Source: Shewanella sp. HN-41
GTDB taxonomy: Bacteria > Pseudomonadota > Gammaproteobacteria > Enterobacterales > Shewanellaceae
Assembly (NCBI RefSeq): GCF_000217915.1
Contig: NZ_AFOZ01000002.1
Span: 1-64,000, forward strand
Length of the DNA stretch: 64,000 nucleotides
Direction: 5' to 3'
Shown here: positions 13,451 to 60,901 of the stretch, one piece after another
How positions within the stretch are numbered: position 1 is the first letter of the stretch
Layout of the letters: each line of letters begins with the position of its first letter
Notes under the pieces: model-generated
Databases searched by the model: none
What the model was told of the DNA's origin: nothing
The model's input: only the letters and a program-made list of their open reading frames with translations
Translations under genes and position numbers: made by a program

Positions 13451-13557
13451 AAAAAAAAAGCCTCAGCAAACAAGTTGCTGAGGCGCCAGAATTTGGCTCA
13501 TCACTATAAGTGAAATAAAGGTCTGAAAGATAGAACATCTTAACCTCTGTACCCTAC
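13451..13557 (-). ncRNA. spf: Spot 42 small RNA
   Basis: The minus strand from 13557 reads GTAGGGTACAGAGGTTAAGA, then GTTCTATCTTTCAGACCTTT. This is almost identical to the first 45 nt of E. coli Spot 42, with one extra T. It ends in a GC-rich hairpin (13460-13484) and a run of nine U. The total of about 107 nt matches the 109 nt of E. coli. The location between polA and engB, in polA orientation, is also conserved. Spot 42 is an Hfq-dependent RNA that represses carbon-use genes under CRP control in enteric bacteria; targets in this organism may differ. Confidence 0.95.
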
Positions 13558-13636
13558 GCAGAGCATAATACGCTATTTATCTTTAAATGGAAAACAGTTT
13601 TTTCAAAAATGATGTAATTGTGTGCGCTTGATCTCA
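13558..13636 (-). promoter_or_regulatory. Spot 42 promoter with candidate CRP site
   Basis: On the minus strand a -10 element TATTAT lies at a suitable distance from 13557, with a weak -35 (TTTTCC, 18-base spacing). TGTGC-GCTTGA-TCTCA at 13621-13636 matches 8 of 10 CRP consensus positions and is centred about 71 bases upstream of the RNA start. Confidence 0.55.
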
Positions 13637-41114: not shown

Positions 41115-41130
41115 AGGTGCTCACCGGCTC

Positions 41131-42936: not shown

Positions 42937-42959
42937 CTCTAATCTGGGTTATGGGGGCT

Positions 42960-43553
42960 TTAGCTTTTGATTATTTCCGCCGCCAGTCGTTGTTTTTGTT
43001 CCGGCGTATTCACATTCACAAAGGCGTTGGCCTGGTCGGCGAAAGATTCAACGACAAAGTGATGCTTGGCATACCAAAAGTCTACTTTACGCTCACCCGC
43101 CTCGAGAAAGGCTTTCATCGAGTCACGTAAGCTAGGTTTTAACAGTAAGACGACGGGTTGTTCATATTCACCGTCACTGGCGACGGCGATCTCTGCATCT
43201 TCCGTCTTAATCGCTGCCAACATCCGTGGCACAAGATCCAATGGTAGTAGTGGGCAGTCACAGGGGACGACTAATAAATAGTCTGCCTCGGTCTGGCCCA
43301 TAGCGGTAACCATGCCCGCGAGGGGGCCGAGAAAACCACTATGCTCATCGCTTATCACCTTAAAACCAAACTCAGCATACCGTATCTGGTTGCGATTTGC
43401 GTTGATCAGGATCTCCTTAACCTGAGGTTTTATCCTGTCAATCGTGTGTTCAATCATGGTCTTGCCATTTAATTCGACTAAACCTTTATCGTCCCCGCCC
43501 ATACGGCGTGCCATGCCACCGGCGAGAATTACAGCATCAATGTGCAACGGCAT
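42960..43553 (-). CDS. mobA: Molybdenum cofactor guanylyltransferase MobA
   Basis: Attaches GMP to molybdopterin to form the MGD cofactor used by DMSO-reductase family enzymes, which are abundant in Shewanella anaerobic respiration. It is 197 aa. N-terminal [21 protein letters not shown] (GG-rich nucleotide loop with Arg and Lys) is the family signature. VPCDCPLLP supplies the metal-binding Asp. Its start overlaps the end of the tungstate ATPase gene by 17 bases, linking cofactor synthesis to metal uptake. Confidence 0.94.
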
Positions 43554-44247
43554 ATAAAGATCCCTCGATTGGAGCTGTGTGTATGGACTGAGGTGAGATT
43601 AGCACTCGCTCACCCTCTATGTACCATTGTTGCTTGCAGATGGCGGTTAAAGCGCAATTTTGGTGACTACTGAGCAGCATGCCTGTGCCTTCTTGTTTTA
43701 ATTGTTGGATCATCTGCAACACCAGTGCTTGGGAATCCTTGTCCATATTGGAGGTCGGTTCATCGAGCATCAATAGTTTAGGTTGCAGTATCCAGGCTCG
43801 TGCAATGGCGAGGCGTTGCCTTTCGCCGCCGGATAGATTGCTGGCACTGGCGTGTAATAGCGAACCTAGTTGAGCCATTTCGATGGCTTGCGCTGTGCGC
43901 TGTTTCGCCTTGGCCTTAGCTTCAGCGTTGAAACTGAGGCCATAGTTAAGATTGTACTCTACTGTGCCATCGAACAAATAAGGGTGCTGATGTAGGTAAA
44001 CAGCTTTACCTAGCAGAGGATTATGCTGCCACCACGCGTCAGTAGCAAAGCCAACGGCCTCGATATTCCCCTTGGTGGGTTGCATTAACCCCGCCAGAAT
44101 TTTCATTAGGGTGGATTTACCCGACCCATTATCACCTTGAAGATAAATTACATCTCCTTGATGTAATTCGAGCAACTTAGCTTGAAAAAGTCGGCGCGAG
44201 CCAAATGACACTTCCAAGTCTCGGGCGGTGAGTTTTACCTGAGTCAT
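43537..44247 (-). CDS. tupC: Tungstate ABC transporter ATP-binding protein TupC
   Basis: Cytoplasmic ATPase of a tungstate or molybdate importer. It is 236 aa. Walker A is [11 protein letters not shown], the signature is [15 protein letters not shown] and Walker B is LMLDEPTSN. It lies four bases after the permease and overlaps mobA by 17 bases. Specificity for tungstate is assigned from the TupA-type binding protein; molybdate transport cannot be ruled out. Confidence 0.88.
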
Positions 44248-44250
44248 AGG

Positions 44251-44958
44251 TTAATGGCTCCTTGGCATGGCTTTGCCACGTAAACTACCCAAAGCAAAGT
44301 TAAGGATCAAGGCCAAGATGAGCAGCACGAGTCCAAGGGCGATAGCTTGAGCAAAATCACCTTTGCTGGTTTCCAGCGCGATGGCGGTGGGGATATTACG
44401 GGTCACGTTTAAAATATTGCCACCAACCATCATAGAACAACCTACTTCGGTCAGAATCCGGCTAAATGCGGCGACAATGGCCAAGAGTAGGGGCATTCGT
44501 AGCTCGCGGCATACTGTCCATACGGCTCGTCCCCATGAGGCGCCTAAGGTGCGTGAGGTTTCCCATGCCCTGCGATCGACGCTGGTAAAGGCGGCTTGGC
44601 TCATGGCGATCAGCACTGGCGCGCAGATCAACATCTGCCCTAGGATCATGCCTTCTTGAGTGAATAACCACTTTAAATCACCCAGTGGACCATTGCGGGT
44701 CAGGAGTAGATACACCAGCAAACCTATTACCACAGTGGGGATAGATTGCAGAGTTTGGACTAGGTTAGTGACTAACCATTTGCCGCGAAAGGGTGCAAAG
44801 GCCAGCACAAAGCCGAGTACCATTGAGGGGACTAAGGTGATCAGTAGCGCCGCGAAAGAAACTGAAAACGAGACAGATATGATGGACCAAACGTCTGGGT
44901 CCAGTGAAAACAGCAGGCTCAACGCCTGCTGTAACAGTGCTAGCCAGCCGTCGTTCAT
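44251..44958 (-). CDS. tupB: Tungstate ABC transporter permease TupB
   Basis: Inner-membrane permease, 235 aa, with about six hydrophobic segments. The EAA-like loop is SRTLGASWGRAVWTVCRELRMPLL (starting at about 137), and TEVGCSMMVGGNILNVTRN resembles the conserved region of TupB permeases. It overlaps tupA by four bases (44955-44958), a typical coupled arrangement. Confidence 0.9.
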   Translation of the reverse strand: MNDGWLALLQQALSLLFSLDPDVWSIISVSFSVSFAALLITLVPSMVLGFVLAFAPFRGKWLVTNLVQTLQSIPTVVIGLLVYLLLTRNGPLGDLKWLFTQEGMILGQMLICAPVLIAMSQAAFTSVDRRAWETSRTLGASWGRAVWTVCRELRMPLLLAIVAAFSRILTEVGCSMMVGGNILNVTRNIPTAIALETSKGDFAQAIALGLVLLILALILNFALGSLRGKAMPRSH

Positions 44959-45779
44959 TCGCTATAGGTTGCCTTGAACAGTTGCTCGCCTTCAACTTTG
45001 AAGTTGTTGATCATGCTTTGGCCTTCCTTGCTGATTAACCAATCGCTGAACGCTTTAGCACCCTTGTGGTTCAGATCTGGGTATTTCGCAGGGTTGATAA
45101 GGATAACTTGGTATGGGTTCGCTAGGGTTTTTCCACCATCGAAATCTACGCCCAGATCCAGCTTAGTCTTGTAAGCCACAAATGTACCACGATCCGATAG
45201 GGTATAACCTTGTAACTCATTTGCCATCAGCAGGGTTTTACCCATGCCTTGGCCTACCGAGGTATAGCCTTTAAAATCGGGAGTCACGCCAGCGGCTTTC
45301 CATACTTCTAACTCTTTGATGTGAGTGCCAGAGTTATCACCACGAGAGACGAAAGGTAAGCCTGATTGGGCTATTTTCGCAAAGGCTTCTTCGGCGGTTT
45401 TACTGTCGCGCAGTTTAGCTGGATCGTTTTTAGGGCCTAAGACAACAAAATCGTTTTCCATAATGCCACGGGGTTCAACACCAAAACCATTGGCAACAAA
45501 TTTTGCCTCGGCACTTGGGGCGTGGGTCATCACTAGATCCACATCACCTTGCTCACCCAGTTTCAGCGCCTTACCTGTACCCGTTGCGATAACTTGGACT
45601 TTATAACCCGATTCGCTCTCGAACTTAGGCAGGAGTTCTTTTAACAAACCTGAGTTGTCGGTACTTGTGGTGGTCGCTAGCTTAATGACTTCAGTAGCTT
45701 GAGCGGGTAATACTGTGAGCATGCTGGCAGCAATAACCAGGCCCAGTAGTGACTTCATATGGGATTTCATGTTTAGCAT
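44955..45779 (-). CDS. tupA: Tungstate-binding periplasmic protein TupA
   Basis: Periplasmic binding protein, 274 aa, with a signal peptide (about 1-28, ending AQA). IKLATTTSTDNSGLL (about 32-46) is the oxyanion-binding TTTSTxxSGL signature of TupA proteins, distinct from ModA. VTHAPSAE and SRGDNSGTHIKE are further ligand-contact regions known in the family. AAGGAG lies five bases before the ATG. It is the first gene of the tupABC-mobA-mobB/moeA-moaA run, so metal uptake and cofactor assembly probably share a transcript. The gene is divergent from the sigma-54 regulator. Confidence 0.92.
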   Translation of the reverse strand: MLNMKSHMKSLLGLVIAASMLTVLPAQATEVIKLATTTSTDNSGLLKELLPKFESESGYKVQVIATGTGKALKLGEQGDVDLVMTHAPSAEAKFVANGFGVEPRGIMENDFVVLGPKNDPAKLRDSKTAEEAFAKIAQSGLPFVSRGDNSGTHIKELEVWKAAGVTPDFKGYTSVGQGMGKTLLMANELQGYTLSDRGTFVAYKTKLDLGVDFDGGKTLANPYQVILINPAKYPDLNHKGAKAFSDWLISKEGQSMINNFKVEGEQLFKATYSE

Positions 45780-45921
45780 GGATACTCCTTGGCAAAAAAA
45801 ATAGATTTCCGGCTCAAATGCCTATTGAGCGGAGGGGGGGTAAATTGTAATGCGTTCGATTGAAAGCAATTTAGATGCCAAGCCGATAATTGCCGTTTTT
45901 CCTTCACAGGCAGATCTAAAC

Positions 45922-45937
45922 TGTGAGCTTGATCTCA
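45922..45937. promoter_or_regulatory. Candidate CRP site between tupA and the response regulator
   Basis: TGTGA-GCTTGA-TCTCA matches 9 of 10 consensus CRP positions. It lies 143 bases from the tupA start and 128 bases from the regulator start. The spacer and right half (GCTTGATCTCAGG) are identical to the candidate site upstream of Spot 42. Confidence 0.45.
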
Positions 45938-46064
45938 GGCTCAACAAATAGTCGGCAGACAAATTGTCTCAGCACACGCTTCTCATGGTTCATAGTGACC
46001 TATTAACCGAGTTTCAATGCTAGAATTGGTCGCAATTGAGTCAAAATGTCCAGAAGTGACCACT

Positions 46065-47447
46065 ATGAGCCAGATAGATAATAACCTCAAGCCTCTTCCT
46101 TCGGCCGTTTCAGTGCTTATCGTCGACGATGAGCCCGGGATGCGTAGTTTTTTAAATAAGGCACTTTCAAAGAAATTCGCCTTAGTTGAAACCGCGGGCA
46201 GTATTGAAGATGCGGAGCAGTTGCGTAGCCGGTGCCACTTCGACCTGTTGATTGTCGATATTCGCCTACCGGGCCGTTCTGGGATCGAATGGCACGAAGC
46301 CCTAGATGAGCAGGGCCGTCGTTCGGATATTATTTTTATGACGGGTTATGCCGATATGGAAGTGGCTATTACTGCGCTTCGTGCCGGGGCTTCTGACTTT
46401 ATCATGAAGCCTTTCCATCTTGAGCAGATGATGTCGGCGGTCGACCGTTGTATCGAGCGCCGCTTGCTTAAGCGTGAAAATCTGATGCTGCGCCGCGAGG
46501 TCTCTATTGGTTATTCCTCGACCATTATTGGCAGCAGTGAGGCCATGAAATCGGTCAAACATGTTATCGAGCGGGTGGCGCCAACCAATGCCGTAGTGCT
46601 AATCCAAGGCGAATCGGGTACGGGTAAAGAATTGGTTGCAAGACAACTGCATCTACTCAGTGGCCGTCAGGGGCCATTTGTGCCCGTCAATTGTGGCTCC
46701 ATCGCCCCTGAGTTACTCGAGAGCGAGTTATTTGGCCATACGGCGGGGGCCTTTACGGGGGCGAAAGGCAATCGTGAAGGGTTATTTAGTTTTGCCTCCG
46801 GTGGCACGATTTTCCTCGATGAAATTGGTGAGATGCCCCTGAAAATGCAAACGGCTCTACTCAGAGTGTTGGAGCAGAAAGCGATTCGTCCCGTGGGCAG
46901 CGAGAAGGAGGTCAATATTGATGTCCGCGTGATTGCCGCGACTAACCGTACACTTGTCGAGGAGGTCGAAGCCGGAAATTTCCGCCGTGATCTATATTAT
47001 CGTTTGAATGTGCTCGATATTTTAATTCCTCCCTTGCGCGAGCGTCCTGAGGATGTGGTGGAATTGACCCATCATTTTACTCGGCAATTGGCCGCCGAAT
47101 TGGGTGTGAGGGAAGTCGTGTGGAGCCATGAAGATATGGTGAAGTTACAACAGCATGAGTGGCCAGGAAATATCCGTGAGCTGCGAAATATGATTGAGCG
47201 CTGTATTTTACTCGGCAAGCCTCCGGCGGAATATTGGAAACAACAGATTAAGAGCGAGTCCTTACCTTCCCAGGGTTACCCCCTAGATTGGCCATTGAAA
47301 GAGGTTGAAAAACACCATGTTACTAGTGTGGTGGATCTGCACTATGGCAATAAGTCGGCCGCCGCGCGTGATCTAGGCGTATCCCGCAAGACCTTAGATC
47401 GCAAATATAAAGAATGGTTTGACTTTAGCGGCGAACAGGAGTCCTAG
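46065..47447 (+). CDS. Sigma-54-dependent response regulator (NtrC family)
   Basis: About 460 aa from the ATG at 46065 (MSQIDNNLKP). The N-terminal receiver domain has the acidic pair in IVDDEPG and the phospho-acceptor Asp in LLIVDIRLPG. The AAA+ domain has Walker A GESGTGKELVA, the sigma-54 contact loop GAFTGA, and Walker B GGTIFLDEIGE. The C-terminal Fis-type helix-turn-helix is NKSAAARDLGVSRKTLDRK. It activates RNA polymerase-sigma54 promoters. The cognate kinase starts two bases after its stop. An earlier in-frame start (46017) would add 16 residues ahead of the receiver. Targets are not visible; the divergent tup genes are candidates. Confidence 0.93.
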   Translation: MSQIDNNLKPLPSAVSVLIVDDEPGMRSFLNKALSKKFALVETAGSIEDAEQLRSRCHFDLLIVDIRLPGRSGIEWHEALDEQGRRSDIIFMTGYADMEVAITALRAGASDFIMKPFHLEQMMSAVDRCIERRLLKRENLMLRREVSIGYSSTIIGSSEAMKSVKHVIERVAPTNAVVLIQGESGTGKELVARQLHLLSGRQGPFVPVNCGSIAPELLESELFGHTAGAFTGAKGNREGLFSFASGGTIFLDEIGEMPLKMQTALLRVLEQKAIRPVGSEKEVNIDVRVIAATNRTLVEEVEAGNFRRDLYYRLNVLDILIPPLRERPEDVVELTHHFTRQLAAELGVREVVWSHEDMVKLQQHEWPGNIRELRNMIERCILLGKPPAEYWKQQIKSESLPSQGYPLDWPLKEVEKHHVTSVVDLHYGNKSAAARDLGVSRKTLDRKYKEWFDFSGEQES

Positions 47448-47448
47448 G

Positions 47449-49578
47449 GTGTCATTTTTTACTCACTTTTTTGGTGTCAGTTGGCAGCAAATGCAGGCCA
47501 AAGTGCGCTATCGCATATTAATCCTGACTTTACTGCCTATTCTGCTGACCTTAGTGAGTTTAGTGTTTATCACTATCTACTGGAATATCAGCTATACAGG
47601 CAAACAGCTGTTTATGAAGGTAAAGGCCGATCTCGCCGTGGCCGAAAACACCCTGCAGCAAGTGCAAGTCCGCCAAGAAAAACAGCTCGAGCGGGTGATG
47701 ACGTCGTGGACCTTTCAGAATGACTTCCGACCTATCTTAGGGGGAGACTTGGGCCATAGGGCGAGTATTGATACCTTCCTTCACGAGCAGAAAATGCTGC
47801 TCAATCTCGATTATTTGCGTTTAGTCAGTGTCGATGAAGCGGCTGCGGATCCCGATCTACGGTTGATATTGCCCAAGATGGGAGGCTTATTGCCTTACTC
47901 TGGGCTGATGGTGTTATCGCCAGAACGTTTATCCCGCATTGATCCTGAGTTAGTAGCCACGGCCAGTATTCCCATTGTGGCGACATTAAGAGCGCAGAAT
48001 CCGAGCAAGGCAGTGGAAGAGCGAGGCTTACTCAGTCGTAGCCTGTTACCCGTGCCGGATGCCGAGGGGAAAGTGGCTTGGTATCTCGACGGCGGCATTT
48101 TATTTAACCGCGATACTCGGATTGTCGATCATATTCGTGATCTGGTATACGACAAAGGGACGCTGCCCGAGCGTTCGATCGGCACAGTCACGATTTTCTT
48201 AGACAATATTCGTGTTTCAACCAACGTACCGCTGCACTTTTATCCAACGGGCACTGAGACCCAAGGGCGCGCGTTGGGGAGTTTAGTGTCTGAGGAAGTG
48301 CGTGAAAAAGTATTAGTGCAGGGGGACTTATGGGTCGATAGAGCGTTTGTGTTTAACGATTGGTTTATCTCTGCCTATGCGCCCTTAGAGGATATTCGGG
48401 GTGAACGGGTAGGCATGATCTATACGGGTTTTTCTGAGTCGCCTTTTATCCATAATTATCTACTTAATATTATTGAGTTAGGTACGATTTTGATGTTAGT
48501 GCTGCTGGTATCTGGCCTACTGGTTTACCGTGGTGCTTACAGCCTGCTGCAACCGATAGAACGTATTCACCACGTGGTACAGGCGGTGCAGTCTGGCCGT
48601 AATATTCGTATTGGCGCCCTAGGGTTAGATAGGGATAACGAGCTATCTAACTTAGCGGAGCAGTTCGATAGTATGCTCGATCTGTTGCAGCGGCGTAATG
48701 CACAGATCCAAGCGGCGGCAGAGCAACTTGAAATGAAAGTTGAAGAGCGAACCCGCAGCTTGCAGGATAAGACCCTAGAGCTGCAACGGAACGTGGCGCT
48801 ACTCAACGAGACCCGTCAGCAGCTAGTCACCAACGAGAAGCTCACCGCCCTAGGTGAATTGACGGCGGGCATCGCCCATGAAATTAACAATCCGACCGCC
48901 GTTATTCTCGGCAATATGGAACTACTACGCTACGAACTTGGCGACAATGCCGAAGTAGTAAAAGAAGAAATAGATCTCGTTATTCAGCAAGTTGGACGGA
49001 TAAGCACTATTATCCGCAGCTTATTGCAATACAGCCGCCCAGGTGAATTCAATGCGCCTCTAGAGATGCACCCTATTACGCCTATTATCGAAGAAATGTC
49101 AGTGTTAGTGCGACATTCAATTAAAAAACAAGAAGTTGTGCTTATCACTGAACTTAATGCCACTTGTCCTGTGCAGGTTAATCGGCCGCAATTACTGCAG
49201 GTCTTGATTAATCTAGTGGTGAACGCGGCACATGCTATGGATGGCAAGGGCCGAATTTGGGTGCGGACCTATGACTGGCTGCAGCAGGATATGCCGATTG
49301 GCGTCAAAATCGAAGTAGAGGATGAAGGTTCTGGGATTGCACCTGAACAACTTGGGCGGATTTTCGACCCATTTTACACCACACGCAAAGATGGCACTGG
49401 CCTAGGGCTTTCCCTTAGCTACGGTATTATTAAGCGAATTGGCGGCACTATCGAAGTGAGTTCCATATTAGGCAAAGGCTCTATCTTTACGATAGGTTTG
49501 TACCATGAAGCTAAGGAGGAACAGCAAAATAATCCCTACGAGGGCTTACATTTTTCAGGTTGTTCTACCGAGATTTAG
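47449..49578 (+). CDS. Membrane sensor histidine kinase, partner of the sigma-54 regulator
   Basis: A 709-aa sensor from the GTG at 47449 (AGGAG seven bases upstream). Membrane segment one is about 26-48. A large periplasmic sensor of about 290 residues follows, probably double-Cache type. Membrane segment two (about 345-367), a HAMP and a long coiled coil (AAEQLEMKVEERTRSLQDKT) come next. The phospho-acceptor His is in LTAGIAHEINNPTAVILGN. ATP-binding boxes are LINLVVNAAHAM (N), DEGSGIAP (G1), FDPFYTTRKDGTGLGLSLS (F/G2). This NtrB/DctB-like layout goes with sigma-54 regulators that respond to small carboxylates or ions. The ligand is unknown. Confidence 0.92.
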   Translation: MSFFTHFFGVSWQQMQAKVRYRILILTLLPILLTLVSLVFITIYWNISYTGKQLFMKVKADLAVAENTLQQVQVRQEKQLERVMTSWTFQNDFRPILGGDLGHRASIDTFLHEQKMLLNLDYLRLVSVDEAAADPDLRLILPKMGGLLPYSGLMVLSPERLSRIDPELVATASIPIVATLRAQNPSKAVEERGLLSRSLLPVPDAEGKVAWYLDGGILFNRDTRIVDHIRDLVYDKGTLPERSIGTVTIFLDNIRVSTNVPLHFYPTGTETQGRALGSLVSEEVREKVLVQGDLWVDRAFVFNDWFISAYAPLEDIRGERVGMIYTGFSESPFIHNYLLNIIELGTILMLVLLVSGLLVYRGAYSLLQPIERIHHVVQAVQSGRNIRIGALGLDRDNELSNLAEQFDSMLDLLQRRNAQIQAAAEQLEMKVEERTRSLQDKTLELQRNVALLNETRQQLVTNEKLTALGELTAGIAHEINNPTAVILGNMELLRYELGDNAEVVKEEIDLVIQQVGRISTIIRSLLQYSRPGEFNAPLEMHPITPIIEEMSVLVRHSIKKQEVVLITELNATCPVQVNRPQLLQVLINLVVNAAHAMDGKGRIWVRTYDWLQQDMPIGVKIEVEDEGSGIAPEQLGRIFDPFYTTRKDGTGLGLSLSYGIIKRIGGTIEVSSILGKGSIFTIGLYHEAKEEQQNNPYEGLHFSGCSTEI

Positions 49579-50370: not shown

Positions 50371-51030
50371 TCAGGAAACTATTTTTTGCGGGCTGGTTTG
50401 CAAAATCTTGTCTTGTAAGACTTTTAGCAAAACACCGTAGGCAGGAAGGAAAAGACCTAAGCTCACGAGTAACTTAAAACCGTAATCGACACTGGCAATC
50501 TCAGGCCAATTGGCGGCCATAAAGCTGTCGGACGAGGCATAAAACGCGACGCTAAAGAAAACTAAGGTATCGACTAAATTACCCACTATGGTGGATGCAG
50601 CAGGTGCGACCCACCAAGAGCGGCTGGCCCGCAGGCGGGCGAAGACTGTGATATCCATCAGTTGGCCAATCAAGTAGGCGGCAAAACTTGCAAAGGCGAT
50701 GCGGAACACAAAAGTATTCCACTGCGCAAGTGAATCTGCGCCTTGGAAGCTGCCTTGGTGAAACAGCACACCCATTACGTAGGAAATCATCAGTGCAGGC
50801 ACCATGGCCTTAAGGATAATGCTACGGGCAGCCGTTTGGCCGAAAATACGTACCGTGAGATCTGTGGCTAAATACACAAATGGAAAGCTGAATGCGCCCC
50901 AAGTGGTGTGGTAACCAAATAGCTGAAATGGTAGTTGTACTAAGTAGTTGCTGACGCAAATAATCAGTATGTGGAATCCTACTAATAGGAGTAGGGCGCG
51001 GCGGAGCTGCGCTGTGGTTAACATTAACAT
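50371..51030 (-). CDS. yhhQ: Queuosine precursor transporter YhhQ (VUT family)
   Basis: Inner-membrane importer for 7-cyano- or 7-aminomethyl-7-deazaguanine, precursors of queuosine in tRNA. It is 219 aa with six membrane segments. YHTTWGAFSFPFVYLATDLTVR (start about 40) and AYLIGQLMDITVFARLR are the diagnostic family motifs. STIVGNLVDTLVFFSVAF is a further conserved helix. Start candidates are 51030 and the ATG six bases later. It is divergent from the periplasmic binding protein gene. I see no preQ1 riboswitch in the short leader. Confidence 0.92.
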   Translation of the reverse strand: MLMLTTAQLRRALLLLVGFHILIICVSNYLVQLPFQLFGYHTTWGAFSFPFVYLATDLTVRIFGQTAARSIILKAMVPALMISYVMGVLFHQGSFQGADSLAQWNTFVFRIAFASFAAYLIGQLMDITVFARLRASRSWWVAPAASTIVGNLVDTLVFFSVAFYASSDSFMAANWPEIASVDYGFKLLVSLGLFLPAYGVLLKVLQDKILQTSPQKIVS

Positions 51031-53431: not shown

Positions 53432-53832
53432 AGATAATGAATGAAGGCTCAGTGCCTATGGACACCAGTGGTTTTTTGATTAAGTGAATACATTCTTTTT
53501 ACAGTACTTTGAATCTTTTCGGTATCCGTTCGTAAATAAGAATCTTTCGCTCAAATTAAAGGCCGTGGCCTTGGGTGTCAAGATGTAAGCCGCAGGCCTG
53601 TGACTTTTGCCATAGTCTCATTTTGTGATGATAAAAAATGTGACTTAAGTGGGTCTTTTTGTCGGTGAGCGATCCATTGATGGACATTTTGTCTCTTAAC
53701 TGTGTATAGGCTTTCCCCTTTTGTTTCAATTAGTCGATCTGGGTTGGTTTTTGACAGTTTTTTGGTTGAGACAGAATAGCCACAGCCCACAATAAGCGAC
53801 ACATCTTACATTTTCTATGTGACAACAATAAC
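53432..53832. other. Divergent promoter region menF / TonB receptor
   Basis: A 401-base gap with no convincing gene; a 74-codon minus-strand frame (53578-53802) has no features. I found no clear Fur box, B12 or TPP riboswitch core. Since it holds the promoter of the six-gene uptake operon, its regulatory elements would point to the substrate. Confidence 0.5.
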
Positions 53833-55914
53833 ATGATTACCACGAATACCCTCTTTAGCGTGTCGTCTTTAGCCTTGGCTATTGGTCTTAGTTTTGTGGC
53901 TCAAGCCGATGATATTTCCCGAGATCCGCTACTCAATATCGGTGAAGTGATCGTCGTTCACGGTGACGGCGAGGAAGCCAGTGAAATGGCGACAACCCAC
54001 TGGAGCATTAGTGAGGAGGAAATCCGCGCAACGGGAGCACAGACCTTAGATCAAGTCTTAAAGAATGTGCCTGGTGTGTACATTCGCGTGGGGGGAGACG
54101 GCACTCCGAGAGTCGATATTCGTGGTTTTAAAACTCGCCATGTCACTCTTTTAGTCAATGGTGTGCCTATGGGTAGCGCCGATGATGGGCAATTCGACCC
54201 GAGTGTGATCCCTACCAGTCAAATCGCCTCGGTGGAGGTTTCTGTGGGGCCGACGTCGGTACTCTATGGTCCGAGTGGTGCGGGCGGGGTGATCAATATT
54301 ATTACCAAGCAAGGCGATATGGCTCCTGCGCTTTCCGGGCGTTTGGAGGCGGGTAAGGATAATACCTTCAATGGTGATATGAGTGCCGCGGGTGCAGGAG
54401 ATGATTGGCAGGGGTTAGTCAGTGTCAGCCGCCAGCAGACGGACGGCTTCCCAATGTCGAGTGATTTTGAACCTACGCCATCTCAAGATGGGGAGCTGCG
54501 AGTGAACTCGGATAAAGAAGTCACTAACTTCTATGCTCAAGGCAGCTACTGGTTATCCGATAAGACGCAGTTGATTGCAAATATGGCGTTGCGCAGCGGT
54601 GAATGGGGTAAACCCGCCCGTGACGGTACTGGCAGTGGCAAGATGAAATATGAACGTACCGATGACTATGACTCACATACTGCCCAGTTAGGTTTGGCAC
54701 ATCGGTTTGATGACACTTTTACGCTGCGTGGATTTGGTTATCACAACCAAAGCGATACCTTAGAATCCTCCTATGCCGACGAAACCTATCAGGCGGTGAC
54801 TCAGTCCCAAGATGGCCGCTCGGTAGTCCAAGGTATTAATCTACAATTAATCACGGATTTACATGCAGCAGGCTTGTTGACCACCTCGGTGATTGCAGAA
54901 GAGCAACGTTGGAAGTCGACAGTCACTACTTATACACCAGATACAGGCAGTAATAGTGGCTCAGGTACGGGCTCTGGTGGCGGTAGCGGCGGTGGAAGTG
55001 GCTCTGGTGGTGGAACTGGTGGCGGTACGGGCTCTGGCAGCGGAAGTGGCAGTGGAACCAGCGGCGCCGAAAAGTTAAATGATTCCGCATGGTTATATAC
55101 AGCGGCGGCTGAATATCAATATCGGTCTGAGCATCAATACGGCTTTACCTTAGGCGGTGCTTATCATTCACTCGATGCCAGTGATGGCACGGATGATAAC
55201 TATTCGGCCATGGCCTCTAGCTATTGGCAGTTGCTGCCAGATTCGCGCCTGAGTTTGAGTGTTGCACGTAAGGTACGCTTCCCCTCTATGGTGAACTTGT
55301 ATTCACAACTCTCTGGTAATAGCGATTTAGAGGCCGAAGAATCTAAACATTTGGAGTTGGGCTTAGAGCAGGATCTGCCCGAGGGCACGGACTTTTCTGT
55401 TTATGGTTACTACACGGATGCGGAAAATTATATCGCTAAGGATATCGATGGTGTTTATCAAAATATGGGGCGCTATAAGTTCAAAGGAATTGATTTTCAA
55501 ATTAATAATCACGCCATTGAACATTTAGATCTGAGCCTCTCCTACAGCTTCCTAGACTCGGAAGAGATGGACGGTGACGATACCTTAGATGCGCTGCAAT
55601 ACCGCCCTCGCCATCAATTACGCTGGCAGATGAGTTACGAGTTTCCCTTCGAAACTCAAATTCATTTGAATGTGGAGCGTATTTTGGATCAAGTCTATGC
55701 GACTCAAGTGAAGGTTAACGGCCAGACACAATATCAACAACAGTCTCTGGACAACTACACCTTAGTCGATATGAATCTGGTACAGCCATTAATCCATGAC
55801 AAATTAGATGTTTATCTACGAGCAACTAACCTGCTTGATGAAAATTACTACCAGAGTGAAGCGTTGCCACAGGCGGGACGCCAGATCTTTATCGGTGTGA
55901 ATTGGCAGATTTAA
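53833..55914 (+). CDS. TonB-dependent outer-membrane receptor
   Basis: A 693-aa energised outer-membrane importer. It has a signal peptide (about 1-25, ending AQA), a TonB-box-like GEVIVVHG, a plug domain (ATGAQTLDQVLKNVPGVYIR, GPTSVLYGPSGAGGVINIIT) and a 22-strand barrel ending GVNWQI. Residues about 371-411 are almost only Gly, Ser and Thr (start GSNSGSGTGSGGG) and sit where an extracellular loop is expected. It is the first gene of a tight operon: the ATPase gene starts one base after its stop. It probably brings an unknown scarce nutrient or metal complex to the ECF importer encoded next. Confidence 0.92.
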   Translation: MITTNTLFSVSSLALAIGLSFVAQADDISRDPLLNIGEVIVVHGDGEEASEMATTHWSISEEEIRATGAQTLDQVLKNVPGVYIRVGGDGTPRVDIRGFKTRHVTLLVNGVPMGSADDGQFDPSVIPTSQIASVEVSVGPTSVLYGPSGAGGVINIITKQGDMAPALSGRLEAGKDNTFNGDMSAAGAGDDWQGLVSVSRQQTDGFPMSSDFEPTPSQDGELRVNSDKEVTNFYAQGSYWLSDKTQLIANMALRSGEWGKPARDGTGSGKMKYERTDDYDSHTAQLGLAHRFDDTFTLRGFGYHNQSDTLESSYADETYQAVTQSQDGRSVVQGINLQLITDLHAAGLLTTSVIAEEQRWKSTVTTYTPDTGSNSGSGTGSGGGSGGGSGSGGGTGGGTGSGSGSGSGTSGAEKLNDSAWLYTAAAEYQYRSEHQYGFTLGGAYHSLDASDGTDDNYSAMASSYWQLLPDSRLSLSVARKVRFPSMVNLYSQLSGNSDLEAEESKHLELGLEQDLPEGTDFSVYGYYTDAENYIAKDIDGVYQNMGRYKFKGIDFQINNHAIEHLDLSLSYSFLDSEEMDGDDTLDALQYRPRHQLRWQMSYEFPFETQIHLNVERILDQVYATQVKVNGQTQYQQQSLDNYTLVDMNLVQPLIHDKLDVYLRATNLLDENYYQSEALPQAGRQIFIGVNWQI

Positions 55915-55915
55915 G

Positions 55916-57280
55916 ATGACACTCCTAGAGCTAAAAGGCGTTAGCTTCAACTATGGTAGCCAGTTGCCGGCTGTACTGCAGGAGGTCAACTTAAGGATTG
56001 GCCCCGGCCAATGCCACTGTGTGAGCGGGCCTACGGGGTCTGGGAAGTCGAGTCTGTTAAACCTACTGGCGGGGGTGTTAAATCGCCCCCATGAAGGTGA
56101 AATCTGGCGTAAGCCTAAGCTAGTGACGGGGCTGGTGATGCAGGACCCGCAAATTCAACTCATTAGGCAGACCGTGGGGGCTGAGGTTGCCTTTGCGCTG
56201 GAAAATCTCAGCATTCCCACAGAGAAAATGCTACCTAAGGTGCAGCTTGCATTGCGACGGGTGGGGTTGTATTTGCGCCTCGATACCCCAGTGAATACGC
56301 TGTCACTCGGTCAGAAATATCGGCTAATGATTGCCGCCCAACTGGTGTGTGAGCCCCATTTACTGTTACTCGATGAGCCTTGGGCGCAACTAGACGATCA
56401 CGGCGTAAGCGAGCTTTTAAGCGTACTGCGCAATCTTATCCAAGAAGGGATGGCGCTGGTGTTGGTCGAGCATAATGCCTCCGCCTTCTCCGAAATTATT
56501 CAATATTACTGGCAGTTAGAGACGGGCAAGCTATCCGAGGGCATTTATACAGTGAAGGATACGCCGCCAGTTGAGACGCCCGTGTGGCACAGTCAGTTTA
56601 ATCACTTAGGTAAAGTGCTCGTCAGTGCCGAGGCCTTCGATTTTGGTTTCGATGGCAGTCCAGTGCTCTTTGCTTGTCCACGGGGATTTCAACTACGGGC
56701 GGGTGAAGTCGTGGCCTTAGTGGGGGATAATGGCTCAGGCAAAACCAGCCTATTAAAAACCATCGCTGGCGTGTTGTGTTTAAGGCAGCGATTACCCCTC
56801 AAAGTGCTAGGGCGAAGACCTAAGCTTGGGATCTATGGCGCCGAACTGGGGTTGCTGATGCAAAGGCCGAGTCGACAATTATTCGAGACCAGCGTGCTAG
56901 CCGAAATGCAGTTCAGTCTTAAGCGGTTTGCACTCCCCAAAGAGCGCGCGGCGCAGATGTTGGACGAGTTGCAGTTATCCGACTTAGCTGAATTGTCGCC
57001 CCATAAATTATCCTACGGCCAACAGCACTTGATTGCCTTAGCCTCATTAGCCTGTTTATGCCCTAAAGTGTTGCTACTTGATGATCCTTTAGCGGGAATG
57101 GACAAGTATTACCACGGCAAAGTATGGCATTTGCTGCAGCGTCTCAGTGCTCAGGGTACTGCTATCTTACTCACTAGCCATAGACACATTGAGCATAGGG
57201 CTGTGTCACGGCAACTTAGCCTACGTAATGGCCAATTGGCGGAAGACCCTGTGGGGATGGAGGCACGTTATGTGGGTTAG
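55916..57280 (+). CDS. ECF transporter ATPase, two ABC domains fused
   Basis: Energising subunit of an energy-coupling-factor importer, 454 aa, combining what are usually two separate proteins (EcfA1 and EcfA2). Domain one has Walker A GPTGSGKSSLL (about 40-50), signature LSLGQKYRL and Walker B LLLDEP. Domain two has GDNGSGKTSLL (about 271-281), signature LSYGQQHLI and Walker B LLLDDP. The second domain therefore has Asp where the catalytic Glu is usual. Q-loops VMQDPQIQLI and LLMQRPSRQLF match cobalt/ECF ATPases. Its end overlaps the T-component gene by 11 bases. Confidence 0.9.
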   Translation: MTLLELKGVSFNYGSQLPAVLQEVNLRIGPGQCHCVSGPTGSGKSSLLNLLAGVLNRPHEGEIWRKPKLVTGLVMQDPQIQLIRQTVGAEVAFALENLSIPTEKMLPKVQLALRRVGLYLRLDTPVNTLSLGQKYRLMIAAQLVCEPHLLLLDEPWAQLDDHGVSELLSVLRNLIQEGMALVLVEHNASAFSEIIQYYWQLETGKLSEGIYTVKDTPPVETPVWHSQFNHLGKVLVSAEAFDFGFDGSPVLFACPRGFQLRAGEVVALVGDNGSGKTSLLKTIAGVLCLRQRLPLKVLGRRPKLGIYGAELGLLMQRPSRQLFETSVLAEMQFSLKRFALPKERAAQMLDELQLSDLAELSPHKLSYGQQHLIALASLACLCPKVLLLDDPLAGMDKYYHGKVWHLLQRLSAQGTAILLTSHRHIEHRAVSRQLSLRNGQLAEDPVGMEARYVG

Positions 57281-57956
57281 CTGTCGCCGTTTGCGCCGGC
57301 GAACACGGGGGCATTGGAGTCACGAACGGCGTGAAACTATCATCTGCAGTTTGTCATTGCTATTCGCCTGTGTGCTCTCGGCCTGTGCTTTTGTATTACC
57401 GACATATTTACTCCTGCCACTCGCAGGGCTTAATGGGCTCTTAGTTATCCACGGTTTGCTGCGTCGTGGCAGTATTTTGGGAGTGCTAAAGCTAAGTTTA
57501 GTGCAACTGTGCATCACCCTGAGTCTGTACTTAATCTTCTATGGCATAGCGCATTTAGCTCAAGGCGCCGTAGTGGTTGCACGTATTGTTCTGGCCACCA
57601 TTCCCGGTTGGTGGCTTTGTATTACGGCGGCCCCCGAGCGCATTGGCGAAGTGTTAAGTGTGTTTTTACCGACCAAGTGGGCCTTTGTGGTCGCGGCTTC
57701 CTTAAGTTTATTGCCCTATATGGCCGATGAGATCCGCGAGATATATCACATCCAATGTCTGCGCGGGGCACATATTACCTCCAAGGCGTTGCGTAACCCT
57801 AAAAATTGGTCCGAATTGGTGTATTGCGTGTTGTTTCCCGTTTTGATCCAATTACTTAAATTATCTCGTCAAATGGCTATTGCGGCGCAGAGTCGTCATT
57901 TTGGCTTGAACCCACACCCAACCCATTGGCACTCACCGAGGGACAACAATGACTAA
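57270..57956 (+). CDS. ECF transporter transmembrane T component (EcfT/CbiQ family)
   Basis: From the ATG at 57270 (MWVSCRRLRRRTRG, with GGAGG six bases upstream) the protein is 228 aa with about five membrane helices. The cytoplasmic coupling region includes LVIHGLLRRGSI and, nearer the C-terminus, EIYHIQCLRGAHI. The latter resembles the A-R-G coupling motif of CbiQ/EcfT (here L-R-G-A). It overlaps the ATPase gene by 11 bases and the S-component gene by 8 bases (57949-57956), so translation is coupled. Confidence 0.85.
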   Translation: MWVSCRRLRRRTRGHWSHERRETIICSLSLLFACVLSACAFVLPTYLLLPLAGLNGLLVIHGLLRRGSILGVLKLSLVQLCITLSLYLIFYGIAHLAQGAVVVARIVLATIPGWWLCITAAPERIGEVLSVFLPTKWAFVVAASLSLLPYMADEIREIYHIQCLRGAHITSKALRNPKNWSELVYCVLFPVLIQLLKLSRQMAIAAQSRHFGLNPHPTHWHSPRDNND

Positions 57957-58491
57957 AAAGCTTCCCCTTAGCCTACAAGACTCGCTCTTTGTTGGTTTCT
58001 GCGCCACCTTGCTGGTGGCATTAACTGGCATGTTAAGGCTAAAACTCGGTATATCTGGGCACAGTATGTTTTTAATAAGCTTTTTTTATCTGATTTGCTA
58101 CGGGGTGTTGGGGCGCTTCGGTGGCATGACGGCCTGTGGCGCCATTGCTGGCCTTGTGGCTATGGCTTTGGGAGTCGGAAAAGGCGGGCCTATGATTCTG
58201 TTAAAGTTTGTTTTACCCGCCATAGCGATGGATCTCGTTGCCTTACTCTTGCCTCTCACTATGAGCCTGCATTGGCGCTGCGTGATCTTAGGCATTGCGG
58301 GTTGCATCGCCTGGGCGGGTAAAGTGGCGCTGACTAATATGTTGGCGGGCATGGCGCTGGATATCGTGGTGATTCAATGGGGTATGAGCGTATTAAAAGG
58401 CGGATTCTTCGCCACCTTGGGTGCCTTGCTTGTGCCGCCCGTACTGACTCGACTAAAGGCCCACGACCTGTTGCACAGAGACAAATTTTAG
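57949..58491 (+). CDS. ECF transporter substrate-binding S component, unknown specificity
   Basis: A 180-aa hydrophobic protein with about six membrane helices and short loops, the size and layout of ECF S components. Segments such as LGRFGGMTACGAIAGLVAMAL, MILLKFVLPAIAMDLVALLL and WAGKVALTNMLAG are seen. I do not match it to a named S family (BioY, ThiT, RibU, CbiM and QueT motifs are not evident). Specificity must be set by this gene and the receptor. Confidence 0.78.
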   Translation: MTKKLPLSLQDSLFVGFCATLLVALTGMLRLKLGISGHSMFLISFFYLICYGVLGRFGGMTACGAIAGLVAMALGVGKGGPMILLKFVLPAIAMDLVALLLPLTMSLHWRCVILGIAGCIAWAGKVALTNMLAGMALDIVVIQWGMSVLKGGFFATLGALLVPPVLTRLKAHDLLHRDKF

Positions 58492-58507
58492 AACCCTAGG
58501 AATTCAG

Positions 58508-59245
58508 ATGAAAAATTGGCTGATTTGTATCGACGATACCGATGATATTGGCACTAAGGGCACGGGGGAAATTGCCGAGGAAATCGCGCTCCTCCTCGCG
58601 AATATTTCGGGCGGTAAGGCTTCCTTCGTGACGCGGCACCAATTATTTGTGCACCCCGATATTCCTTACACATCCCATAATAGTGCCATGTGTTTTGCAC
58701 TGCGTTCGCCATTGACTCGGGCCGAGATCCACCAATATGCCGTTGCCCATTTAATTGCTGAGTCGGCGCCTAAGGCTGATCCTGGCCTCGCCATACTCGA
58801 TTTAGGATCCCAATACGATGCAACGGCCCTAATGGATTTTGGTCGTAGAGCAAAAACCGAGGTGCTCACTAAGCTTGCAGCCTATGAATTAGCCGAACAA
58901 CTTAATATCCAGTTAACTGAACATGGCGGCACAGGCCAAGGTGTTATTGGTGCGCTAGCGGGATTAGGGCTGCGTTTGATGGGTAGCGATGGCCGGGTAA
59001 AAGGACAAATTAAGCTTGGCCAGTTTGAAGATGTTGCACTCGAACTCAGTGTTGCCGATATCCTCGAGCAGACGGGGCTCGATGCTGTGATGAGCACAGA
59101 GCGGCATCTTCTCGCGGCGGATGATCGAGTCTTGCTTAAGGGTAAAGTGAAAGCCGTTTACCTTGGGCATCAGTTTGTACTGTTAGTCGATAGAGAAGCC
59201 CAAACATGGCGTAATGCGGGTAAGCGAGCATTACAGGCATATTAG
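58508..59245 (+). CDS. TiaS-like DDTD-motif protein, unknown function
   Basis: A 245-aa protein whose start MKNWLICIDDTDDIGTKGTG carries the DDTD motif of archaeal tRNA(Ile2) agmatidine synthetase TiaS, in which it forms part of the nucleotide-binding kinase-like domain. Later segments are HPDIPYTSHNSAMCFAL, GGTGQGVIGALAGLGLR (glycine-rich, about 138-154) and a C-terminal VLLKGKVKAVYLGHQFVLLVD beta domain. TiaS's agmatine and RNA-binding zinc parts seem absent. It follows the S component by 16 bases. Inference: it could phosphorylate or otherwise modify the imported compound. Confidence 0.72.
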   Translation: MKNWLICIDDTDDIGTKGTGEIAEEIALLLANISGGKASFVTRHQLFVHPDIPYTSHNSAMCFALRSPLTRAEIHQYAVAHLIAESAPKADPGLAILDLGSQYDATALMDFGRRAKTEVLTKLAAYELAEQLNIQLTEHGGTGQGVIGALAGLGLRLMGSDGRVKGQIKLGQFEDVALELSVADILEQTGLDAVMSTERHLLAADDRVLLKGKVKAVYLGHQFVLLVDREAQTWRNAGKRALQAY

Positions 59246-59257
59246 ATTGAGGTTTAA

Positions 59258-59494
59258 ATGGATCCTATATTGGCCGAAAAAGCATTTAAATTCATCGATA
59301 GTCGCTGGATTTTCCGGACGGGATTGGGTCAGTATTCAGCGGCGAGGCGAGTAGCACAGCGGTGCACAGGTTTTGTCCCCGATGATGAAGATGAGCAAGT
59401 TGATGACGAGCTTCGCTCCTGTTACAACTGTCAGTATCGGCGCTGGCTGGTCGAGAGTTTTGAATGCCTACTACTAAAAAAGCAGCATTATTAG
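59258..59494 (+). CDS. Small cysteine-containing protein, unknown function
   Basis: A 78-aa soluble protein 12 bases after the TiaS-like gene and probably the last of the operon. It has an aromatic N-terminal part (FIDSRWIFRTGLGQY), an acidic stretch (VPDDEDEQVDDE) and four cysteines: one in AQRCTGF, a pair in CYNCQYRRW, one in FECLL. The four could bind zinc or an iron-sulfur cluster. I do not recognise a family. Being tightly linked, it is likely to act on the same substrate as the TiaS-like protein. Confidence 0.72.
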   Translation: MDPILAEKAFKFIDSRWIFRTGLGQYSAARRVAQRCTGFVPDDEDEQVDDELRSCYNCQYRRWLVESFECLLLKKQHY

Positions 59495-59711
59495 ATGATT
59501 AGCAAAATTTTGTGCGATAGCTCCTCTTTTGACTTGGCAGCTAGATGTTCTTCTCGGCTTGTAACACCGTGTATGGTGATTTTGCCATCCTCAGCATAGA
59601 ATGCCAATGGACTGTTCTATACTACCAAGAGTAAGACACGCTTAACTGCTCTGATGTTGTTTGGTTCAATTATGGTTTCCTATTAAGTTAGTTATCCTTG
59701 GGGTTGCAGAT

Positions 59712-59978
59712 ATGAGTGAGCCAACTGAATCAGTTGACCTTATCAAATTGCCAGTGTCGCAATTGACATTAGGCATGTTTGTCAGTGCTATAGATAAAAG
59801 TGATAAGGGTCAACTTGCTATTGCCAATGCTGGGCAAATAAAGCACAAGGATGCGATTTTAAAACTTGCTAGAAGTGGTATCAAATTCGTTTGGGTCGAT
59901 ACGGGGCGCTCGGCGGATCACTGTGTTTTTGGGAAGAAAACTAGTAATGATGCCTCTGCAGGCAACAAAAAAACCTAA
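59712..59978 (+). CDS. DUF3391 domain, N-terminal part of a split HD-GYP protein
   Basis: From the ATG at 59712 (MSEPTESVDLIKLPVSQLTL) 88 residues match the DUF3391 domain that normally precedes an HD-GYP domain in one polypeptide. The frame stops at TAA 59976-59978, which overlaps the next ATG (TAATG). The break follows an A7 run (59967-59973). One more A would join the frames as GNKKNLMTREKQQ and give about 396 aa, the usual family length. Sequence error, true split with translational coupling, or -1 slippage on the A7 run are possible. Confidence 0.75.
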   Translation: MSEPTESVDLIKLPVSQLTLGMFVSAIDKSDKGQLAIANAGQIKHKDAILKLARSGIKFVWVDTGRSADHCVFGKKTSNDASAGNKKT

Positions 59979-60901
59979 TGACCCGTGAGAAGCAACAAGA
60001 GCAAGCCCAAATTATTCTCACCGAAGCGAAGGATCTTATTCGTAAAGTGTTATCCGAAACCTTCGAAGGCAAAGCCATCGAAGTTACGCCCTTCGAAGCG
60101 TTAGCCGATAGCATGATAGAGTCTGTCATGTTAGATGCAGATGCGCTTAAGTGTATGTCTGCGCTCCGTTCAAAAGATGCCTATCTACTCGAACATTCAG
60201 TGAATGTCGCCTTTTTGCTAGTCACCTTCGGTAAATATCTAAATCTTGACCGTGCTATGCTGCAGGATATGGCTGTAGGTGGTATTTTGCATGATATTGG
60301 CAAGATTAAAGTCGACAATAAAGTGCTGCACAAACCGGGCAAACTGACACCGGAAGAATTTGAGCATATGAAGCTTCATCAAGTGTATGCGATTGAAATT
60401 ATTAGAGAAACTAATGGGTTGTCACAGATCAGTAAAGATATCTGCTTAATGCACCACGAAAAGTTAGATGGTCGCGGTTACCCAAAGGGGCTGAAGGGTG
60501 ATGAAATTCCCCTCCATGGTCGCATGAGCTGCATCGTCGATATCTTCGATGCCTTGACGGCGACACGTTGTTACAAAGAGGCCATGAGTCCAGCCGCCGC
60601 CTTTAGAATTTTACTCAGTTTGACGCCATTTCACTTAGATCAACAATTGGTCTACGAGTTTATTCGTTGTATCGGTATTTACCCTGTGGGCTCCTTAGTT
60701 GAATTATCGGACGGCCGAATTGGTATTGTCTGGGCTTCGAAGGACAGAGATGCACTGCATCCGATCGTGAAGTGTTTTTATTCTTTAAAAGTAAAACGTT
60801 ACACCGATGTCGCTATGGTAGATTTATTAAAATCTGAGCTGTATATCGAGCGTGGCATATCACCAGGTTCATTGGATATCGATCCAACGCCTTTCTATTA
60901 A
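59978..60901 (+). CDS. HD-GYP domain cyclic-di-GMP phosphodiesterase
   Basis: This 307-aa frame holds a complete HD-GYP domain. The metal-binding HDIGK (about 105) and the signature HHEKLDGRGYPKGL (about 158), followed by IVDIFDALTATRCYKEAMS, are intact. It should therefore hydrolyse cyclic-di-GMP. In relatives it is fused to DUF3391, encoded just upstream in the -1-related frame. The C-terminal extension (from about 225) is typical of this group. It is not linked to the preceding uptake operon (218-base gap with no terminator I can identify). Confidence 0.85.
   Translation: MTREKQQEQAQIILTEAKDLIRKVLSETFEGKAIEVTPFEALADSMIESVMLDADALKCMSALRSKDAYLLEHSVNVAFLLVTFGKYLNLDRAMLQDMAVGGILHDIGKIKVDNKVLHKPGKLTPEEFEHMKLHQVYAIEIIRETNGLSQISKDICLMHHEKLDGRGYPKGLKGDEIPLHGRMSCIVDIFDALTATRCYKEAMSPAAAFRILLSLTPFHLDQQLVYEFIRCIGIYPVGSLVELSDGRIGIVWASKDRDALHPIVKCFYSLKVKRYTDVAMVDLLKSELYIERGISPGSLDIDPTPFY

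Follow-up and report, generated by a model that had tools for sequence, protein, structure and literature searches.

A candidate molybdenum/tungsten-linked uptake operon with a TiaS-like protein in Shewanella

We analysed 64,000 nucleotides of a Shewanella sp. HN-41 contig (NZ_AFOZ01000002.1, positions 1–64,000; hereafter, the window) and focus here on a six-gene operon at 53833–59494 that encodes, all on the plus strand, a TonB-dependent outer-membrane receptor, a fused double ATPase, EcfT, an S component, a protein with a DDTD motif (the DDTD protein) and a small four-cysteine protein (the Cys protein). The operon very probably belongs to molybdenum/tungsten (Mo/W) metabolism, because it is predicted to share its regulation with modA, tupA and formate dehydrogenase genes, lies near moa, mob and tup genes, and has relatives in Mo/W gene neighbourhoods across phyla. 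We propose, with a probability of roughly one half, that it is an uptake and activation system of a Mo/W regulon that would import an organic compound, likeliest a pterin, and then phosphorylate it; we infer each of the three, transport, substrate and phosphorylation reaction. An earlier note on this DNA had suggested that a scarce compound is imported across both membranes and then activated. Its set of uptake genes plus an enzyme stands and is conserved; it had missed the Mo/W context and the operator.

The operon and its gene products

The genes are tightly packed, exactly in the order, directions, gaps and overlaps that the earlier note had given. A single base separates the receptor gene (53833–55914; 693 aa) from that of the ATPase (55916–57280; 454 aa), the EcfT gene (57270–57956; 228 aa) overlaps the ATPase gene by 11 bases and the S component gene (57949–58491; 180 aa) by 8 bases, and gaps of 16 and 12 bases precede the genes of the DDTD protein (58508–59245; 245 aa) and the Cys protein (59258–59494; 78 aa). 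We compared this arrangement with 20 other Shewanellaceae regions fetched around the operon. The six-gene order was kept in 19, and the twentieth (L132) has the remaining five genes and no detectable receptor; identities to the window proteins fall as low as 31% (EcfT) and 48% (DDTD protein). Neither of the flanking genes of the window, menF and a gene of HD-GYP type, was found beside the operon in 10 of the 20 regions, so the operon appears to be kept as a unit and not through general synteny. The idea that uptake genes and enzyme form a set was borne out by this conserved order, and the gene-neighbourhood check that the earlier note had called for found the DDTD and Cys genes adjoining the transporter in other Shewanellaceae genomes. 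Matches to the DDTD protein occur in 89 of the 146 genomes of the family and in 3 of 274 genomes sampled from the class; three of the 89 (G370, G416 and G417) carry fragmented, apparently decayed matches.

Both the plug (PF07715, 1.1e-24) and the barrel domain of the receptor were matched in a Pfam search. Its N-terminus has what we take to be a signal-peptide-like stretch followed by a TonB-box-like motif, EVIVV, and it shares 28–35% identity with its eight best receptor matches beside DDTD genes in other Proteobacteria. Residues 375–411 (54955–55065) form a Gly/Ser-rich, low-complexity insert. The ATPase matches PF00005 (ABC_tran) in two stretches (8.6e-44), as well as TIGR04521 (3.6e-62) and TIGR04520 (1.2e-61), both under cut-off; each half has a Walker A motif, a signature and a Walker B motif, with DEP in the first half and DDP in the second. 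EcfT was recognized by PF02361 (CbiQ/EcfT, 5.7e-11) and has LRGA at residue 164. Encoded side by side, the EcfA pair, EcfT and the S component are predicted to constitute an energy-coupling factor (ECF) transporter gene set.

The S component fell outside the families that the earlier note could name, and profile searches likewise matched it to no known S family: no Pfam or NCBIfam model was found at E ≤ 1 and no sequence match in the PDB. Its AlphaFold2 (AF2) model (pLDDT 89.6) has six helices, and all of its top six Foldseek matches are ECF S components, none with E below 0.001. The best was 5edl (TM 0.63, E 1.2e-3), which we take to be YkoE. As modelled, the protein has an S-component fold and fits no named family. 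S components of the YkoE/ThiT type are its nearest solved folds, but they show no sequence-family match to it, and we noticed no thiamine gene context. Comparison of profiles connects it to a family of S-like proteins encoded beside DDTD genes in other phyla (probabilities 93.7 and 86.8; E 1.8e-7 and 4.3e-6). In the alignment of that family, which covers 39 of 66 S-like genes, three of the 39 match PF09819 weakly (best 0.004).

The Cys protein has the pattern C-x(18)-C-x-N-C-x(11)-C and a DDEDE stretch, and no convincing Pfam family was found for it. The four cysteines to which the earlier note had drawn attention (C36, C55, C58 and C70) are conserved in 20 of 21 aligned homologues; in the exception (L115) the gene looks frameshifted. 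Searching 82 non-Shewanellaceae loci by motif gave no further copy of the protein. It would be a lineage-specific part of the Shewanellaceae system and a putative helper, in the earlier note's suggestion one for metal or Fe-S.

A predicted Mo/W regulon

Aligned upstream regions of the operon share a conserved block, in which we recognized a palindromic operator, GGACATTTTGTCT (53682–53694), whose first base lies 151 bases before the receptor start. The pattern GGACA-N3-TGTCC, with at most one mismatch, starts 84–155 bp before the receptor in 19 of 20 receptor-bearing operons, the window included, and is missing upstream in L117. Footprinting of this region, which had been suggested before, returned a conserved palindrome. 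Two sites with at most one mismatch occur in the window.

The exact pattern, set solely on operon upstream regions, has two sites in the Shewanella sp. HN-41 genome, one 164 bp before modA and one inside an iron-sulphur gene of the formate dehydrogenase (fdh) locus. A relaxed pattern, RGACAWWWTGTCY (R/Y ends, A/T core), the form of which was chosen after sites had been seen, has five sites in the 4.41 Mb of this genome compared with two for the reversed control. They are at this operon, the tupA/regulator promoter (AGACAAATTGTCT, 45957–45969, in the interval between tupA and a sigma-54 regulator gene, with two mismatches to GGACA-N3-TGTCC), the modA promoter, the fdhD/DUF3305 promoter and the fdh iron-sulphur gene. 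Seven more genomes gave 33 relaxed sites and 11 control sites. Six each of the 33 were at this operon, the tupA promoter and the fdhD/DUF3305 promoter, three were inside the fdh iron-sulphur gene, two at a second formate-dehydrogenase-like gene (30–31% identity), two at modA, four at [NiFe] hydrogenase genes and four elsewhere.

Exact sites were surveyed in nine genomes, where those fetched had been picked for an A/T core or one near it; in four of the genomes the sites covered were 4 of 6 (G313), 2 of 4 (G290), 3 of 15 (G300) and 2 of 12 (G354). Every exact site in G320, G410, G299 and G275 is at this operon or the fdhD/fdh locus, and one exact site in G300 (L153) has no recognizable target. 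In G313, an exact operator lies about 120 bp before another receptor-like gene, named by eye (L146:2880–3058). Six Shewanellaceae genomes also have the operator upstream of genes for the [NiFe] hydrogenase small subunit (L145, L154, L155, where it is 755 bp away, L156, L161 and L169), and the hydrogenase may share the Mo/W regulator. The evidence from the operator lies only in where the sites fall, not in how many there are.

These hydrogenase sites bear on one alternative, that the operon serves vitamin or nucleoside salvage outside Mo/W metabolism, in which case its operator and the Mo/W neighbours would be coincidental or reflect anaerobic co-regulation. TiaS acts on cytidine, some DDTD genes have neighbours unrelated to Mo/W (for example, a nucleoside phosphorylase), and the unremarkable number of exact sites fits this explanation too. 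However, all five relaxed sites in the genome are at this operon or at Mo/W genes, and the neighbourhood link described below recurs in several phyla; we consider such a salvage system improbable.

A candidate for the protein that recognizes the operator is encoded directly after fdhD (whose product scores slightly under the FdhD cut-off), as a protein with helix-turn-helix (HTH) and PBP_like domains; its binding to the operator would follow from this position and architecture. A ModE box pattern of the E. coli type has no occurrence in the window at up to three mismatches. The available part of PMC11980592 describes TaoR, a Mo/W regulator with HTH and PBP-like domains.

The window itself holds a cluster of Mo/W genes (40131–49578) that ends 4.2 kb before the operon, with moaA, mobB-moeA, mobA and tupABC 8–14 kb upstream of it. 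On the minus strand are moaA (40131–41114; TIGR02666, 8.2e-109, over cut-off), a mobB-moeA fusion (41131–42936; NF011060, 1076.7 bits, over cut-off), mobA (42960–43553; PF12804, MobA-like, 4.3e-42), the ATPase gene tupC (43537–44247; PF00005, 9e-30) and the permease gene tupB (44251–44958; PF00528, 7e-11), both named by position, and tupA for a tungstate-binding protein (44955–45779; NF041772, 4.7e-67, below cut-off). Divergent from tup on the plus strand are genes for a sigma-54 response regulator (46017–47447; PF00158 and PF00072) and a sensor histidine kinase (47419–49578; PF02518 and PF00512). TupA-type matches occur in 130 of the 146 family genomes, all under the curated cut-off. Work on tup and moe genes, in the part of PMC10102598 available, served as background only.

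The DDTD protein family and its neighbourhoods

The earlier note had called the DDTD protein TiaS-like, and relationship to TiaS was upheld, with the kinase-domain residues kept. The AF2 model (mean pLDDT 94.5) has TiaS as its top structural match (Foldseek 2.8e-10; Z 23.2, root-mean-square deviation (rmsd) 1.8 over 155 residues), and profile matches to TiaS in the PDB reach about 1e-8. The protein carries traits of the TiaS kinase domain (TCKD), namely the DDTD motif and the threonine that follows: in the sequence alignment, T19 falls on the first threonine downstream of the TiaS DDTD motif, presumably the residue that TiaS autophosphorylates. An alignment of 68 relatives revealed invariant D9, D10, T11, D12, G18-T19-G20, R43-H44-Q45-L46, T55, N58 and S59, followed by D91, G93, G141, G145, I147, G148, L155 and D161-G162-R163. 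The DDTD protein is probably an ATP-dependent phosphotransferase.

The family to which it is closest among those with names is methanogenesis marker 11, for which we know of no function. The window protein matches TIGR03280 (methanogenesis marker 11) at 4.9e-9 and NF040849 (TiaS) at 1.7e-5, both under curated cut-offs, and all 68 aligned relatives match TIGR03280 (best 3.2e-16), compared with 61 of the 68 for TiaS. The TIGR03280 match covers the DDTD domain; however, at 35.7 bits the window protein is far below the cut-off of 255.8, and the match covers only profile positions 133–282 of 292. Pfam PF22641 scored 0.054, below cut-off.

The archaeal tRNA-Ile2 agmatidine synthetase TiaS shares the kinase-domain fold, the DDTD motif and the conserved following Thr, but is 417–422 aa long, some 175 residues more than the 245 aa of the DDTD protein. 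The latter has two cysteines only, at positions 7 and 62, and therefore no zinc ribbon of the TiaS type. Its last 80 residues, which may yet form an OB-fold like the tRNA-binding domain of TiaS, are strand-rich in the model, and the alignment to TiaS stops at TiaS residue 247. Furthermore, the DDTD family occurs in bacteria of many phyla and in a Mo/W gene context. The link to tRNA modification that the earlier note had mentioned thus found no support, and we rejected tRNA modification as the main function because of the much shorter protein, the lack of a zinc ribbon and the Mo/W context.

To describe the neighbourhoods, we scanned genome contigs for DDTD relatives; at least 470 were found, and the best 80, nearest to one query, were kept. 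Counts refer to clusters of open reading frames (ORFs) within 6 kb of the DDTD gene; the ORFs were picked mechanically, and L033 and L039 duplicate the loci L003 and L002. Cluster names rest on one to three representatives each, several with profile scores below cut-off; representatives named by profile include TupA, WtpA, WtpB, Mop, MoaC, MoaE, ModE_repress, PBP_like and Oxidored_molyb. An S-like gene was present in 66 of the 80 loci and a receptor-type gene in 47 (one cluster of 42, and one of 5 that was named by eye). Mo/W markers, for which we counted a PBP_like or ModE-like regulator, the WtpA family, MoaC, MoaE, Mop, Oxidored_molyb and the storage protein, were near DDTD in 40 of the 80, or 46 with the TupA-like family counted. 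By cluster, the PBP_like regulator was found 23 times, TupA-like 21, ModE-like 18 and the WtpA family 7, with three each for MoaC, MoaE, Mop, Oxidored_molyb and the storage protein; FdhD was near DDTD in none of the 80. The counts miss true cases: the PBP_like regulator beside DDTD in L002 was lost through the choice of ORFs in L039. Judged by record titles, loci with a marker belong to Chloroflexi, Bacteroidetes, Gammaproteobacteria, a cyanobacterium and an acidobacterium, so the Mo/W link would not be an accident of one lineage.

Some individual loci are worth recording. A gene of molybdenum-storage-protein type is directly downstream of DDTD in L090 and L104 (matching the molybdenum storage protein beta profile at 1.8e-78 in L104, the one locus with this profile match) and about 5 kb away in L060, and in L061 an AOR-like gene is one gene away. 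A DDTD homologue is also carried on a 3.8 kb Pimelobacter plasmid with just three annotated genes (L134). In Bacteroidetes-type loci (L045–L112), an unnamed lipoprotein family (f3) and a type IX-sorted protein (f9) lie between or after the S-like and receptor genes, and f3 had no convincing match. We rejected another lipoprotein family (f10; 12 of the 80 loci) as SUOX-like, its fold not being confirmed; with f10 included, marker loci would number 42 and 47. A search with Rfam found no riboswitch that reached the gathering score, either in the window or in the eight of the best 80 loci that were scanned.

Genome content was tested in 50 DDTD genomes among the best 80 (42 for the EcfT test). A MoaA-type match was present in all 50 (47 above cut-off) and MoaC in 49; the sole genome without MoaC, in which the MoaA-type match is also below cut-off, is a metagenome-assembled genome (MAG; G460). 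We sought molybdenum cofactor auxotrophs, with DDTD and no synthesis of the cofactor, and found no convincing genome among the 50. AOR occurs in 36 of the 50, and in 11 of the 22 proteobacterial ones. In the class sample 38 of 274 genomes have AOR, as do all three of its DDTD genomes. Within the Shewanellaceae, a DDTD match is present in 29 of the 33 genomes with AOR (one broken) versus 60 of the 113 without (Fisher p 2.2e-4, uncorrected for kinship).

By BLAST, the window EcfT has no relative among the ORFs of the best 80 of the at least 470 loci, and an EcfT match is absent from 29 of 42 genomes with an S-like gene, many of them MAGs and possibly incomplete. In many hosts the S family seems to do without EcfT, and in the Shewanellaceae to function with a dedicated ECF module. 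There is a precedent in B12 uptake: according to the available text of PMC6072759, BtuM works alone for B12, and BtuB/BtuM pairs a receptor with a lone S-type protein. Like BtuB with BtuM or ECF-CbrT, which take up a cofactor that bears a metal, the operon pairs a TonB receptor with an S-type protein, and the S-like family resembles BtuM in its frequent occurrence in genomes without an EcfT match. In contrast to these systems, the operon shows no B12 link, has a kinase-type gene and, in the Shewanellaceae, has its dedicated ECF module.

Proposed mechanism and substrate

In the proposed scheme, the TonB-driven receptor would carry a scarce organic compound related to Mo/W across the outer membrane, after which the S component would capture it, and EcfT and the double ATPase would power its entry into the cytoplasm. 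The DDTD protein, as a TiaS-type ATP-using enzyme, would then phosphorylate the compound, trapping or activating it for Mo/W-cofactor metabolism, with the small Cys protein as a lineage-specific helper. Because oxyanion importers are already in the regulon, the TonB receptor and S component suggest an organic form, and an enzyme of kinase type suggests that phosphorylation captures the compound, as with other salvaged vitamins. A pterin-type substrate, rather than a chelate or an oxyanion, is a tentative choice. The substrate might be molybdopterin or the Mo/W cofactor, probably dephosphorylated or partly degraded and shed by other cells. In its most specific and still more tentative form, the proposal is an importer and salvage kinase for pre-formed Mo/W pterin cofactor or dephospho-molybdopterin scavenged from the surroundings, in which the kinase would restore the cofactor.

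Import of a Mo/W chelate is the main rival to a pterin substrate, though on balance we hold it unlikely. Molybdate or tungstate would enter on a siderophore-like molybdophore, from which the DDTD protein would release the metal by an ATP-dependent change to the chelator. Metal chelates are typical cargo of TonB receptors, and the best subfamily profile of the receptor is TonB-siderophor, below cut-off. DDTD adjoins a gene for a siderophore/heme/B12-type binding protein in L071 and in a haloarchaeon (L133), where the two genes are divergent. The retention of a MoaA-type match in every genome tested also suits a chelate, and the storage protein and the Tup and Wtp neighbours point to the metal itself. 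Conversely, we noticed no chelator-synthesis genes in the loci, although no search was aimed at them, S components with the fold found here are known to serve vitamins, and it is not evident how a TiaS-type kinase would help to release an oxyanion.

A third possibility, which we regard as quite doubtful, is passage of molybdate, tungstate or a thio-derivative through the S component, and activation by the DDTD protein of the oxyanion or of the pterin as the metal is inserted. The genomic link with Tup, Wtp and the storage protein agrees with this, as does a locus (L107) in which DDTD is beside a WtpB-type transporter and no S gene was called. However, the same genome already has tupABC, in the window, and modA, and porins let small oxyanions through without any TonB receptor. 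The only importers listed for Mo/W in the available part of PMC11980592 are three ABC types for the oxyanions, TupABC, WtpABC and ModABC; the operon shares its predicted regulon (modA, tupA) and neighbourhoods (Tup, Wtp) with them, but they are classical ABC importers of oxyanions.

Several observations weigh against uptake and phosphorylation of a pterin as part of a Mo/W regulon. DDTD genomes seem to make molybdopterin themselves, and we saw no reliance on imported pterin. We considered kinship to HPPK as support for a pterin substrate and dropped it; the next fold groups after TiaS, among them HPPK, a pterin pyrophosphokinase, reach Z values of about 7, a level that chance can produce, and the resemblance to HPPK is too weak (Z 7.3, rmsd 4.0). 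The count of exact operator sites does not exceed the reversed control (2 versus 3 in the Shewanella sp. HN-41 genome), and since the operator also occurs at [NiFe] hydrogenase genes the regulon would not be purely Mo/W. Thirty-four of the best 80 loci have no Mo/W marker, these loci being the relatives nearest to one query, and the AOR background covers the class sample, so that non-proteobacterial loci are without a matched control. An S-like gene was not called within 6 kb in 14 of the 80, an upper bound, as one was missed in L033/L003, and the tie between the S protein of the window and the S-like family is seen by profile comparison alone, not by BLAST. DDTD genes also stand beside the storage protein (L090 and L104) or the WtpB-type transporter (L107) with no called S gene, so the DDTD reaction need not concern an imported compound and may be more general.

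If a pterin is indeed the substrate, marker 11 of methanogens would be a Mo/W-pterin enzyme. The association gives a lead to the function of the methanogenesis-marker-11/TiaS-like family and ties a receptor/S-component/kinase module of many phyla to molybdenum and tungsten. For Shewanella it outlines a compact predicted Mo/W regulon whose operator is defined, and it raises the testable possibility that the Mo/W cofactor is shared or scavenged by bacteria as B12 is. The parts are of known kinds; in the open-access literature searched we did not find their combination, the S family or the assignment of the DDTD family to Mo/W, and no title or start of an abstract there connected Mo/W uptake with a TonB receptor, an ECF transporter or a protein like TiaS. 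The iron-regulated TonB receptor SO4743 of S. oneidensis, described in the available part of PMC2667191, could not be linked to the operon and was not used.

Other features of the window can be noted briefly. A gene for a YhhQ-type queuosine-precursor transporter (50371–51030) is near the operon, with no link shown. The HD-GYP-type gene 3' of the operon (59661–60901) consists of two overlapping ORFs in different frames; in ten fetched relatives that carry it the gene is a single ORF of 389–419 aa, and the split is, judged from this comparison, a frameshift or an assembly error. Spot 42 RNA (13452–13567, minus strand) is the sole Rfam match in the window.

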